Shown here piece after piece: positions 15,857 through 51,900 of a DNA stretch of 64,000 bases. The notes below the pieces were generated by a model that did not search any database, was not told the DNA's origin, and worked only from the letters and a program-made list of their open reading frames with translations. The stretch lies in contig NZ_CP033068.1 of assembly GCF_003668995.1 (NCBI RefSeq), positions 124,001-188,000 on the forward strand, in the 5' to 3' direction. The translations under genes were made by a program, and so were the position numbers. This DNA is from Flavobacterium sp. 140616W15. Lineage in GTDB: Bacteria > Bacteroidota > Bacteroidia > Flavobacteriales > Flavobacteriaceae. The first letter of the stretch is position 1. Each line of letters starts with the position of its first letter.

Positions 15857-17101
15857 TTATCCAATAAGTTGTGTGTATAAATCCTGATTTTCATTGAGGT
15901 ATTGAAACTCAAATCCCTTGGTTATCATATTACTTTTAATATTTTTGATATCTTTTTTGTTTTTTAGTTCTAATCCAACTACTACTGAACCTACTTCTCT
16001 GCTATTTTTCTTTGCAAATTGAAAATAAGTAATATCATCATTAGGTCCTAAAATATCATTTACAAATTCTTTAAGTGCACCTGGACGTTGCGGAAACTGA
16101 ATCATGAAATAATGCATCAATCCTTCGTAAAGGAGGGAGCGTTCTTTTATTTCGGCAGTTCGCTCAATATCGTTATTACTTCCGCTTACTACGCAAACAA
16201 TTGTTTTGCCTTTTATTTTTTCTTTATAGAAATCCAATGCAGCTATTGTAAGCGCTCCTGCTGGTTCTACAACCATAGCTTCTTCATTATACAATCTCAA
16301 AATAGTAGTACAGACTTTACCTTCTGGTACAAGAATTATATCGTCTAAATTCTTGCGACATATATCAAAGGTCATGTTCCCGACTTGTTTTACTGCAGCG
16401 CCATCTACAAATTTATCAATCGTTTTTAAAGCGGTGTTTTTTCCATCGATGATAGATGTTTTCATTGATGGGGCTCCTTTTGGTTCTACACCAATAATTT
16501 TAGTATCTGGGCTTAGATGTTTAAAAACTTCTGAAAGTCCCGATGCTAATCCGCCACCGCCTATAGGAACAAAAACATAATCTATAGGTTCTTTATACGA
16601 TTCCAAAATTTCAAGCCCTACGGTGCCTTGCCCTGCAATAACTTTTAAATCATCAAAAGGATGAATGAATATTCTATTACTCATTGTAGCATCTTCTGTT
16701 GCAGAAGCGTATGCATCATCAAAAGTATCTCCAGTAAGAACAATTTCTACAAAAGACTTTCCAAATAATTGTACTTGTTTTACTTTTTGCTTTGGGGTAG
16801 TTTTAGGCATGTAAATCTTGCCTTTAATTTGTAGTAAATTACAAGAGTAAGCAACACCTTGTGCATGATTTCCAGCGCTTGCGCATACAATACCTTTTGT
16901 TTTTTCTGTATCATTAAGAGAAGAAATTTTATTGTAAGCACCTCTAATTTTATAAGAACGTACAATTTGCAGGTCTTCTCTTTTTAATAAGACAGTTGCC
17001 TTAAATTCGTCTGAAAGATTGAGGTTTTGTGTGAGTGGAGTAGCGGCAACTACTTTGCTTAGTTGTTCTTTGGCTGTAATTACTTCGTTAAATAGCATCA
17101 T
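15857..17101 (-). CDS. ilvA: Threonine ammonia-lyase (threonine dehydratase)
   Basis: The 414-residue product is a PLP enzyme of the threonine/serine dehydratase fold. The PLP lysine lies in RSYKIRGAYNK, the phosphate-binding loop is GGGGLASG, and SAGNHAQG is present. A C-terminal ACT-like regulatory domain starts about residue 327 (MIQFPQRPGALKEFVNDIL), so feedback control by isoleucine is likely. It converts threonine to 2-oxobutanoate, the first step of isoleucine synthesis. It stands alone here, preceded on its strand by an Ile-rich leader peptide and a terminator hairpin. Confidence 0.93.
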   Translation of the reverse strand: MMLFNEVITAKEQLSKVVAATPLTQNLNLSDEFKATVLLKREDLQIVRSYKIRGAYNKISSLNDTEKTKGIVCASAGNHAQGVAYSCNLLQIKGKIYMPKTTPKQKVKQVQLFGKSFVEIVLTGDTFDDAYASATEDATMSNRIFIHPFDDLKVIAGQGTVGLEILESYKEPIDYVFVPIGGGGLASGLSEVFKHLSPDTKIIGVEPKGAPSMKTSIIDGKNTALKTIDKFVDGAAVKQVGNMTFDICRKNLDDIILVPEGKVCTTILRLYNEEAMVVEPAGALTIAALDFYKEKIKGKTIVCVVSGSNNDIERTAEIKERSLLYEGLMHYFMIQFPQRPGALKEFVNDILGPNDDITYFQFAKKNSREVGSVVVGLELKNKKDIKNIKSNMITKGFEFQYLNENQDLYTQLIG

Positions 17102-17119: not shown

Positions 17120-17150
17120 AAAATAAAAAAACCTCCCGATTTGGGAGGTT
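17120..17150 (-). terminator. Attenuator hairpin in ilvA leader
   Basis: Minus strand: AACCTCCC, a five-base loop, GGGAGGTT and then TTTTTATTTT, about 20 bases before the ilvA ATG. A competing pairing is visible: GAGGT at 17187-17191 can pair with ACCTC of the hairpin at 17145-17149, and TAAAT (17176-17180) with ATTTA (17155-17159) inside it. That is the arrangement expected for a terminator/antiterminator switch. Confidence 0.8.
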
Positions 17151-17195
17151 CTAATAAATTGTATTTTGTTTACTTATTTATATAACACCTCGCCA

Positions 17196-17252
17196 CTATT
17201 GTTGAATTACAATAATGTTAATAGCGATAATAATGTTATTTAAATTTGTCAT
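17196..17252 (-). CDS. ilvA leader peptide, Ile-rich (18 residues)
   Basis: The open frame encodes MTNLNNIIIAINIIVIQQ, with seven Ile among 18 residues plus one Val and one Leu. It ends 95 bases before ilvA and just upstream of the competing hairpins, as in classical transcription attenuation: stalling at Ile codons when Ile-tRNA is scarce would favour antitermination and ilvA expression. Seen directly in sequence; the mechanism is inferred from known ilv leaders of other bacteria. Confidence 0.75.
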   Translation of the reverse strand: MTNLNNIIIAINIIVIQQ

Positions 17253-17272
17253 TGTTTATTATTTGAAAAAAA

Positions 17273-17280
17273 CAAATGTA
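17273..17280 (-). promoter_or_regulatory. Candidate -7 element for ilvA leader transcript
   Basis: Minus strand TACATTTG matches TANNTTTG exactly, about 20 bases before the leader peptide start. No clear TTG is seen at the -33 distance, so this is a partial match. Confidence 0.45.
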
Positions 17281-26223: not shown

Positions 26224-26343
26224 AGCACAAAAGTTGTTTTTCATTAGGAACTCTTGTCCCGCTTTTTGCTATATCTTTTTTATTTTGAAAAAAAATTAAA
26301 AAGGATGTCGCGGCAATCGGGGCTAGAAATGAGCTTTTGTGCT
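26224..26343. repeat. Palindromic intergenic element between mbnP and mbnH
   Basis: The ends AGCACAAAAG (26224-26233) and CTTTTGTGCT (26334-26343) are perfect inverted repeats. Inside are CCCGCTTTTTGCT and CAATCGGGGCTA, which on the minus strand read TAGCCCCGATTG ... AGCAAAAAGCGGG. The same two blocks, in the opposite orientation, bound the element at 27462-27605. It resembles a dispersed Flavobacterium intergenic repeat. Confidence 0.6.
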
Positions 26344-27401: not shown

Positions 27402-27461
27402 GATTTTCCTAATAGGGTTTTTGAAACCTGTTAGAATATAATATAACAAAAATTGGAGTTT

Positions 27462-27605
27462 TAGCCCCGATTGTAGTGTAAAGCCTTTTTGAGTAAAGCC
27501 CTTATTTTTTCTTGGGTTTACAAAGTGACCAGCGGAAACTTTGTAAACGTATAGAAAAATGGGATTTTAAGAAAAGCTTGTAACGAAAAGCGGGTTGGGA
27601 GCTCC
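27462..27605. repeat. Second copy of the TAGCCCCGATTG element
   Basis: Bounded by TAGCCCCGATTG (27462-27473) and AACGAAAAGCGGG (27582-27594), then TTGGGAGCTCC. Inside, TTTACAAAGT and ACTTTGTAAA form a further inverted repeat. It lies between mbnH and the next gene, opposite in orientation to the copy at 26224-26343. Confidence 0.6.
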
Positions 27606-48941: not shown

Positions 48942-51900
48942 ATGAAGGTAAAATTTACATGGATTTTAACATTATTTACAGCGTTAACCATGCAATTTTC
49001 TTTTGCACAAGAGAAAATTATTTCTGGAATTGTTTCAGATGCAATATCAGGTCCAATTCCAGGTGTAAACGTTATTGTTAAGGGAACAAAAACAGGTGTT
49101 CAAACGGATTTTGACGGTAAATATTCTGTTAAAGCAAAAACAGGAGATGTGCTTGTGTTTTCTTATATGGGAATGCAAGATATGACGGCAATAGTTGGTA
49201 GCTCTTCAGTGATTAATATGAAGATGCAAGAAGATGGGAAAGCGTTGGATGAAGTAGTAGTAATGGGGTATGTTACAAAAACTAAAAGCAATATGACGGG
49301 TAGTTCTAAACAGCTTTCTGGTAATGTTTTAAGTGGAATTCCAACAGTTTCTGTTGATCAGGCTTTACAAGGTAAAGTAGTTGGTTTGCAGGTATCAAGT
49401 TCTTCTGGGACTCCAGGTTCTGTTCAGGATATTCGTATTAGAGGAACAGGCTCGATTTCTGCAAATAATCAACCTTTATATGTTATTGATGGTGTGCCTG
49501 TAATAAGTGGAGATCTATCTGGAGGTAATGATAATAAAACAATTCAGACAACAACGAGTTCAGCTTCGTCAATGTCGGTTTTAGCGACTTTAAATAGTCA
49601 TGATATAGAAAGTGTAACGGTTTTGAAAGATGCGTCTGCAACTGCAGCTTATGGAGCAAGAGGATCTAATGGTGTAATCGTAATTACAACGAAAAGAGGA
49701 AAAGTTGGAAAACCGTCTTATAACTTTAGTAATTCTATTGGTTTTCAGAATAATGCAGTTACAGGCAGAAGACCTCTTACAGGAGATCAAAGAAAAGAAT
49801 TGTACTTAGATGCAGTTTATAATACTTATGGTGCTTCTAAAGGTTTTGATAGAATGACAGCCGAAAATTGGCTATTGAATACTCCCGAGGGATTAAGTAT
49901 TGATGCTAGTAAAGCAAGTTTGCAAGATTGGGATGGGGTAAGTCATAACTGGGGAGAGCTATTAAAGAATAAAGATGCCTTAGTTCAGAATACAGATTTT
50001 TCTGTATCTGCAGGAGATGAGAAAACGACCTTTAATGCTTCGCTTGGATATAATAAGACAGAAGCTACTGTTAGAGGAGCTGAATTTAGAAGATTTACTG
50101 CTACGATAGGAGTTACAAGAAAATTAAGTGAAACACTTAAGTTTAGTACTGCAAACTTTTTTTCTGAAGCTAAGCAAAATGGTATTCTAGAAGGGACAGG
50201 AACCTTTAGTAACCCTAATTTGACAAAATATTTTATGAATCCTTGGGTAAATCCTTATAATAGTGATGGTACGTATAATATTGGTACTGGAGCAAATGTT
50301 TCAGATATTGGATATTGGACTTCTTTACATAATACTTTTTATACTTTAGCAAATAACGTTAAAACTAATAATTTATTAGGGCTTAGGTCTAATAATACTT
50401 TAGACTGGAAAATCTCAAATCATTTCAAGTATAAATCAGTATTTGCAGTAGATTATAATATGAATACTTATCATAATTATAATAATAGACTTCATGGAGA
50501 TGGAAGGACTCGAAATGGTTCCATAGAACAGAGCATTAGAAGGAATACGAATCTAGTTTCGCAGAATTCGATTAATTACACTTTGAAATTAGATAAGCAT
50601 AATTTTGATGCAACTGCACTATTTGAGCACCAAAAAAATAAAAATGACCTTGTTGGAGGATACGGTGAGAATATTGCTTCGGATGACTTGATTTATTTGG
50701 ATGTTGTTTCTAAAAACAAAAGAACGATTGGGAATTTTTCAGATTGGTTAAATGTTTCTTATTTAGGCTTGTTTAATTATAATTATAATAATAAATATGT
50801 ACTTGATGCTACATATAGGAGAGAAGGATCATCCAAGTTTGCTCCAAAGCATCGTTTTGGTAATTTTTGGTCTGTAGGAGCTGCATGGAATATTAATAAT
50901 GAAGTGTTTATGCAAGGTTCTGTTTTTAATAATTTAAAACTTAGAACTTCTTATGGAACTTCTGGAAATAGTGGTATAAACGAGAATTCATATCAAAGAT
51001 TAATTGCATTTGATGCTAGTTATGATGCAGAACCTGTAGCTTATCCATCCACTATAGGTAATGAGTTGTTGACTTGGGAAAAAAATAAAACAATTGATGT
51101 AGGTTTAGAATTTGGACTGTTTAAAAATAGGCTTTCGGGAAGTGTATCTTATTACAATAGGGATACGTATGATCTACTACAGAATGTGCCAGTTTCATTA
51201 ACACAAGGAGTTCCTACAGGAACTAGTGTGATACAATTAATGAATGCAGGTGCAGTTTTAAATCAAGGAATAGAAGTTGAATTGAATGTAGATATTTTCA
51301 GAGGAAAAGACTTTAATTGGTCTATCTCAGGTAATTATTCACACAATGATAATGAAGTTAAAAAATTAGCAAAAGATCCAGCAGGAAAAGACATCGAGAT
51401 TACTACAGGAACTAAAGTTACTAAAGTTGGAGAGTCAATAGGGACATGGAATATGCGCAAATGGGCTGGTGTAGATCCTGCTAATGGATTACCATTGTGG
51501 TATGTTAATGGTGTAGACGGAGAAACAACTTCAGTTTACAACAATGCCAAAGTGGCAATGCAAGGAAAATCAGCTCCAGTTTATTCAGGTGGATTCGGTA
51601 CTCATTTTGATTATAAAGGAATTTATTTAGATGTTTCTTTCTATTTCGCAGGAGGACACAAAGTGTATGAAGATTGGACTAGTTATACTCAAAGTACAGG
51701 AGATAATACTTTTGTTTCATTTAACGGTACAGAAAATCTGATGGATAGATGGCAAAAACCAGGTGATATTGTTTCGACTCCTAAGATGGAGCTTGGGGCA
51801 GGGAGAAATGCAGCAACTACATCAACAAGATTTTTGTATGATGGAGATTATATAAGAATGAAAGATTTGGTTTTGGGATACAGATTCGGTCCAGAGACGG

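Follow-up and report, generated by a model that had tools for sequence, protein, structure and literature searches.

What does a very short, isoleucine-rich open reading frame, followed by a hairpin resembling a terminator, do in front of ilvA in Flavobacterium sp. 140616W15? The two could form a device that ties expression of ilvA to isoleucine supply, as the original prediction held, or they could have come to lie next to each other for unrelated reasons. By comparing this locus with its counterparts in relatives and by computing how its RNA folds, we conclude that it is very probably a ribosome-mediated transcription attenuator that senses the supply of isoleucine. Its history, in which most genes of an operon appear to have been lost around it, is traced in the last section.

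Parts of the ilvA leader region

The window is the whole 64-kb stretch of DNA that was analyzed, and all coordinates refer to it. On its minus strand, the order is hutU - DUF4136 - leader - ilvA - globin - aromatic amino acid hydroxylase. The following features make up the leader region and its gene.

17273..17280, minus strand: sigma-A-type box TACATTTG, which matches the flavobacterial TAnnTTTG
17196..17252, minus strand: leader peptide ORF MTNLNNIIIAINIIVIQQ, ATG to TAG, 18 amino acids including 7 Ile
17176..17191, minus strand: antiterminator 5' strand, with GAGGT at 17191-17187 and ATAAAT at 17181-17176
17145..17159, minus strand: antiterminator 3' strand, ATTTAT plus ACCTC, overlapping the terminator 5' arm
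17128..17152, minus strand: intrinsic terminator hairpin with loop AAATC and a computed dG of -14.8 kcal/mol
15857..17101, minus strand: ilvA, threonine ammonia-lyase with a C-terminal regulatory domain, 414 amino acids, ATG at 17101

An 18-codon minus-strand frame with seven Ile codons, a terminator hairpin between this frame and ilvA, and two competing pairings had been predicted, and each was recovered exactly. The frame runs from 17252 to 17196, ATG to TAG, with Ile at codons 7, 8, 9, 11, 13, 14, and 16 of 18. The terminator core AACCTCCC-AAATC-GGGAGGTT occupies 17150-17130 and continues into a T tract that reaches about 17124; a terminator scan delimited the stem as 17152-17128. GAGGT (17191-17187) can pair with ACCTC (17149-17145), and TAAAT (17180-17176) with ATTTA (17159-17155). 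The 184-nt leader region as a whole folds at -39.5 kcal/mol (z = -6.6). The protein encoded downstream scores above cut-off for NCBIfam NF006390 and TIGR02079 and carries PF00291 (the PLP domain) and PF00585. The 4.9-Mb genome has no second full-length close match to this ilvA; four further IlvA matches are of partial length and 24-31% identity.

The box TACATTTG (17280-17273) ends 20 nt ahead of the leader ATG. Because the flavobacterial sigma-A consensus TAnnTTTG is located at -12 to -5 (PMC9723704), this position would place the transcript start near 17268, ~16 nt ahead of the ATG. Matches to sigma-70 type promoters at the element were set aside, since the phylum uses other boxes. Inspection by eye of the sequence ahead of the leader ATG found nothing resembling a Shine-Dalgarno sequence.

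Conservation in relatives and competing explanations

The window contains 646 ATG ORFs of 10-30 amino acids, and three of these, the leader among them, are as Ile-rich as the leader. The other two (at 50495 and 2406, both minus strand) sit antisense within genes and look like chance occurrences. First-order random windows hold 0.18 such ORFs per 64 kb on average, with a maximum of 3 among 60 windows. Because random windows and two accidental-looking frames yield similar ORFs, Ile-richness alone is suggestive but not decisive. At the level of sequence comparison, the decisive evidence is that relatives conserve the peptide, the pairing, and the geometry.

The named ilvA loci examined were the best 80 of 452, of which 79 are assessable (at L081 a contig end cuts the locus), and the element is present in cis at 78 of the 79. 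Leader and terminator lie within 450 nt of ilvA in 76 of the 80; at L080 the element is ~0.55-0.7 kb upstream of ilvA, and at L102 it precedes ilvB-ilvN-ilvA. No element was found at the relocated ilvA of F. araucananum (L078). By eye, that gene is preceded by one that ends like serine dehydratase and by palindromic repeats. Among these best 80, the closest loci, those of F. frigoritolerans and F. hydatis, have 96% IlvA identity. IlvA matches at E below 1e-180 were obtained in 27 of the 61 genomes of a genus sample; two of these matches are partial. The arrangement is leader-ilvA in 17 of the 27, leader-ilvN remnant-ilvA in 3, and ilvA behind other ilv genes in 5; the remaining two are a moved ilvA and a locus cut by a contig end. 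The named-locus and genus samples overlap, and the 93 elements comprise 88 distinct sequences.

Both the Ile codons and the pairing are kept across Flavobacterium, which is what a functional Ile-rich frame had been expected to show. Codons 13, 14, and 16 specify Ile in all 30 distinct 18-residue leaders, and the same spacing recurs in 88 of 92 ilvA leaders: the last Ile codon starts 9 nt ahead of the stop codon, and the pairing core follows the stop at 4 nt. The variability of codon positions 1-3 in the 18-residue class (0.087, 0.178, and 0.188) is not decisive alone. A second frame after the leader stop (M-A-R-C-Y-I-N-K, with an overlapping TAATG) was rejected as coding; its conservation is better read as structure because the frame or its start is broken in L045, L087, and L019. 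Palindromic repeat-like DNA of ~95 nt (such as gccacagatt...aatctgtggcaa) lies between terminator and ilvA in L010, L048, L088, L080, and others. It goes with a longer terminator-ilvA spacing in relatives and is absent from the window.

These comparisons bear on whether the hairpin might do no more than terminate the DUF4136 gene upstream, with the Ile-rich frame arising by accident in AT-rich DNA. The hairpin does lie ~160 nt past the DUF4136 stop on the same strand, and the two accidental-looking frames elsewhere in the window speak for such a view. However, nearly every leader has a promoter box of its own: in 86 of 87 distinct ilvA elements, a TAnnTTTG sequence lies no more than 45 nt ahead of the leader start codon. 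Leader peptide, geometry, and antiterminator are likewise conserved, and similar elements precede ilvD and ilvE in other gene contexts. We consider this explanation highly improbable.

Alternatively, the RNA might be an isoleucine-responsive T-box or ligand-binding riboswitch, with the frame incidental. The terminator/antiterminator layout is common to riboswitches and T-boxes, and since Rfam holds described families only, the RNA might belong to an undescribed class. At the element, no Rfam family fits at gathering or E-value thresholds, the best sub-threshold match being Phe_leader with 28.8 vs 55 bits. The interval between promoter and terminator is chiefly ORF, and synonymous substitutions leave Ile in place: among 37 distinct 19-residue leaders, codon 12 is Ile in 34, written as ATC in 18 and as ATT in 16. 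A riboswitch or T-box is accordingly given hardly any credence here. Elsewhere, the window holds two Flavo-1 RNA motifs (RF01705), at 26251-26328 on the minus strand and 27459-27601 on the plus strand, with 66.8 and 50 bits.

Several leader positions other than Ile are conserved too, and a role in trans has been reported for the leader peptide peTrpL (PMC7298713). The leader peptide could thus be a small protein that works mainly in trans, attenuation being secondary. Part of the non-Ile conservation can, we infer, stem from RNA pairing and start context, and the leaders of similar elements diverge widely outside their I/V core. A main role in trans is very unlikely on this evidence.

The predicted folding switch and its probable amino acid specificity

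If the element is a ribosome-mediated attenuator, as we favor, its transcription and translation in the cell would answer to isoleucine in the following way. RNA polymerase would start ~16 nt ahead of the leader ATG, and a ribosome would translate the leader. With plentiful Ile-tRNA, the ribosome would reach the stop and cover GAGGT, the terminator would form, and transcription would end ahead of ilvA. With scarce Ile-tRNA, the ribosome would stall at one of the seven Ile codons and leave GAGGT and AUAAAU free. These would pair with the emerging ACCUC and AUUUAU, the terminator would be blocked, and ilvA would be transcribed.

Folding was computed with a ribosome footprint that ends 13 nt past the first base of the A-site codon, a value taken from general background. 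In the window, placing the last Ile codon in the A site gives a probability of 0.86 that the terminator 5' arm pairs upstream, vs 0.02 with the stop there. In all 87 distinct ilvA elements, a ribosome at the last Ile codon makes the antiterminator more probable than one at the stop does (medians 0.86 vs 0.03); the value exceeds 0.5 at the last Ile codon in 86 of them and stays below 0.2 at the stop in 84. Together with the conserved leader and pairing, this predicted switch in 87 of 87 elements supports the proposal that ribosome stalling governs transcription into ilvA. Mean switch amplitude over the 87 elements is 0.80 vs 0.03 for shuffled spacers; the smallest amplitude is ~0.0001, or near zero, in one element. 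When the footprint was varied for the window, +16 gave 0.63 at the last Ile codon and +10 gave 0.22 at the stop.

When the window was folded codon by codon, each of the seven Ile codons gave ON (0.68 or 0.86) and the stop gave OFF. Values of 0.68-0.86 were likewise obtained for the non-Ile codons ahead of the final pair, two Gln codons that themselves yielded 0.63 and 0.22. Because stalls at other codons would also give ON, the specificity of the switch rests on codon content; the folding model locates where stalling would matter, not which amino acid causes the stall. Without a ribosome, pairing between the terminator arm and the antiterminator strand has a probability of 0.06 in the window, and the modeled leader would mostly terminate. 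The window is thus predicted to have a protective leader hairpin, whereas the corresponding median of 0.67 over the 87 elements indicates that such a hairpin is not general.

Covarying stems had been suggested as a further check, and they are apparent in only one part of the material. The stems of ilvA elements are nearly invariant, and covariation among 34 aligned sequences is weak and too low to use. Partners do change together between terminator classes of the ilvD attenuators in the family sample, which are the 44 of 89 scanned loci that pass leader and terminator rules. Of these, 26 are CTTCC-type and 16 GTATC-type, and a change in the arm is matched by one in the leader strand. Duplex energy with the own partner averages -8.35 kcal/mol vs -6.65 for permuted partners, with 0 of 20000 permutations as good (n = 44, kinship ignored), and within classes the covariation is marginal (908 of 20000 permutations, kinship ignored). 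Single-element duplex tests reach p ≤0.05 in 87 of 92 ilvA, 22 of 44 family ilvD, and 11 of 20 genus ilvD elements.

IlvA serves the synthesis of isoleucine only, whereas IlvD, IlvB, and IlvC serve both isoleucine and valine. In the 92 ilvA leaders, a few of which come from identical genomes, 43.5% of residues are Ile, 0.9% Val, and 2.7% Leu. The corresponding values are 24.0%, 21.6%, and 4.2% for 20 ilvD leaders of the genus, and 30.1%, 15.2%, and 6.4% for the 44 family-sample ilvD leaders, of which 42 come from other genera. The genome under study also has a leuA-leuB-ilvD-ilvB-ilvN-ilvC cluster, in which ilvD is preceded by an Ile+Val leader, MRISIIIISVINVNVVITYT, and a terminator of its own. 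An Ile-only leader before ilvA and an Ile/Val leader before ilvD therefore fit the division of the pathway. A covariance model of the ilvA element finds the ilvD leader of the same genome (52.4 bits, E 1.9e-5) as well as leaders elsewhere, so the two kinds of element look homologous or strongly convergent. Six further matches to this model in the same genome, beyond ilvA and ilvD, were discarded as unlike Ile leaders before ilv genes.

Among 122 ilvD upstream regions scanned, 64 have one attenuator by the rule applied, 7 have two in series, and 51 have none that was found; these 51 need not all lack one, because many offer just 700 nt of upstream sequence or have an intervening ilvE. Paired attenuators stand before ilvE or ilvD at L120:25-264, L146, L185, L187, L190, L215, L309:11536-11789, and L315 (the last by eye). 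The two copies at L120 are near-identical and 131 nt apart, and several other tandems combine two terminator classes. The computed switch works for both copies in, for example, L120 and L187. Evaluated at the first Ile codon, some second copies switch only weakly; by this count, the value exceeds 0.3 in 11 of 16 tandem elements, a set that includes one spurious L315 frame, and in 57 of 63 single elements.

The presence of IlvA also relates to the control of ilvD. Of the genus genomes whose ilvD is of the leuAB-ilvD type, 20 of the 21 that have IlvA keep the attenuator before this gene, as do 2 of the 9 that lack IlvA (Fisher p 1.3e-4, kinship ignored). In this count, the L244 attenuator enters by a looser rule only and then scores 59.7 bits, one of the nine IlvA-less genomes is 83% complete, G003 is excluded at a contig edge, and five genomes with an operon-type ilvA fall outside the comparison. 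The seven of nine IlvA-less genomes in which the scan found no ilvD attenuator are those of L241, L245, L250, L251, L258, L263, and L266; among the 21 with ilvA, the scan found none before ilvD only at L267 (G025). Loss of ilvA thus goes with loss of the ilvD attenuator, as expected if that attenuator senses isoleucine. In the genus sample, ilvD occurs with no IlvA match at E below 1e-180 in 10 of 61 genomes (G002, G003, G007, G010, G019, G029, G036, G044, G047, and G050).

Locus history and comparison with known systems

The original prediction described control of a single ilvA gene, which is correct for the window; in relatives, the same locus can also hold ilvBN, an ilvN remnant, or an entire operon. 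In G179 (L309), hutU and DUF4136 are followed by two leaders, ilvE-ilvD-ilvB-ilvN-ilvC-ilvA, and the hydroxylase gene, with ilvE identified by TIGR01122 above cut-off. In G043 (L312), ilvD-ilvB-ilvN-ilvC-ilvA lies between hutU and the hydroxylase gene; the attenuator scan found none at this operon. L102 retains leader - ilvB - ilvN - ilvA, and G030, G056, and G046 retain leader - ilvN remnant - ilvA, the G056 remnant scoring below the NCBIfam small-subunit cut-offs. Since relatives have a full operon, ilvBN-ilvA, or ilvN remnant-ilvA at the same locus, the element reads as an operon leftover.

The proteins themselves point in the same direction. IlvB of L102 is 76-88% identical to its counterparts in G207, G014, G179, G043, G185, and G012, and 61-66% identical to the others compared; insertion of ilvBN is less likely than erosion because these proteins are of operon type. 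G188, whose ilvB is identical to the L102 copy, additionally has a leuAB-ilvDBNC cluster. In the IlvA tree, the leader-ilvA, ilvN-remnant, ilvBN, and moved rows form a group of 31 with the full operons outside, at a support of 94/86 that is just under the starred level of the tool. By eye, all 28 tree rows from other genera have ilvA ~5-11 kb past the start of ilvD on the same contig and strand. If the group of 31 began with ilvBN, at least two losses of ilvN and at least three of ilvB would be required.

Synteny and the IlvA tree suggest that the ilvA element is a control region that outlasted the erosion of its ilv operon. Its ancestor would have preceded an operon such as that of G179, and the genes between leader and ilvA would since have been lost. 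We find it probable that the leader was kept while ilvE, ilvD, ilvC, ilvB, and ilvN disappeared and a leuAB-ilvDBNC cluster with its Ile+Val leader took over, which left two attenuators of different specificity in one pathway, and that some relatives stack two Ile-rich attenuators before the operon. The idea that shrinkage of the operon made the ilvA leader Ile-only was dropped because, with full operons present, both leaders in G009 and one of the two in G212 already lack Val.

The series from operon through ilvBN-ilvA and ilvN remnant-ilvA to ilvA alone, with related leaders, offers a view of regulatory RNA and operon content evolving jointly. In addition, the presence of Ile-only and Ile+Val attenuators in one genome makes their specificity directly testable. 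Translation starts in the flavobacterial group differ from the Shine-Dalgarno rule (PMC9723704). The element provides a concrete and testable attenuator in such a group, for which little literature on leader-peptide control was found. In literature lying mostly beyond subscription journals, no ilvA attenuator in Flavobacterium appears among the matches listed.

Known ilv attenuators, such as the ribosome-mediated attenuator of ilvGMEDA in enterobacteria, consist of a leader ORF rich in codons for the product, a terminator, a competing antiterminator, and a biosynthetic gene downstream. Vitreschak and colleagues reportedly made comparative predictions of attenuators for amino acid operons in 2004, including Bacteroidetes/Chlorobi, and thus of the same mechanism in the same phylum. 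A ribosome-mediated attenuator also precedes ilvBNC of Corynebacterium (PMC11857589, PMC10272879). The Flavobacterium element shares all four parts with these systems. Unlike the attenuators of ilvGMEDA and ilvBNC, it would control a single ilvA, its regulatory codons are almost only Ile, its start shows no Shine-Dalgarno-like sequence, and a protective first hairpin is not general.

Within the same genus, the same mechanism has been suggested for amino acid operons of Flavobacterium psychrophilum, where structured 5' elements precede pheA and hisG, among others (PMC9723704); the main text of that report has no match to "ilv" or "isoleucine". In Salmonella, tandem attenuators control mgtCBR, the operon for an Mg2+ transporter and MgtC (PMC3641672). 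The leader regions before the ilv genes of some relatives resemble it in holding two leader ORFs. They differ from it in that each of the two Ile-rich leaders has its own terminator, and the window has one such leader. The mechanism is a textbook one that was already proposed in flavobacteria, and the ilvA element is a new and well-conserved example; what sets it apart is that it seems to have persisted once the operon had been taken apart.
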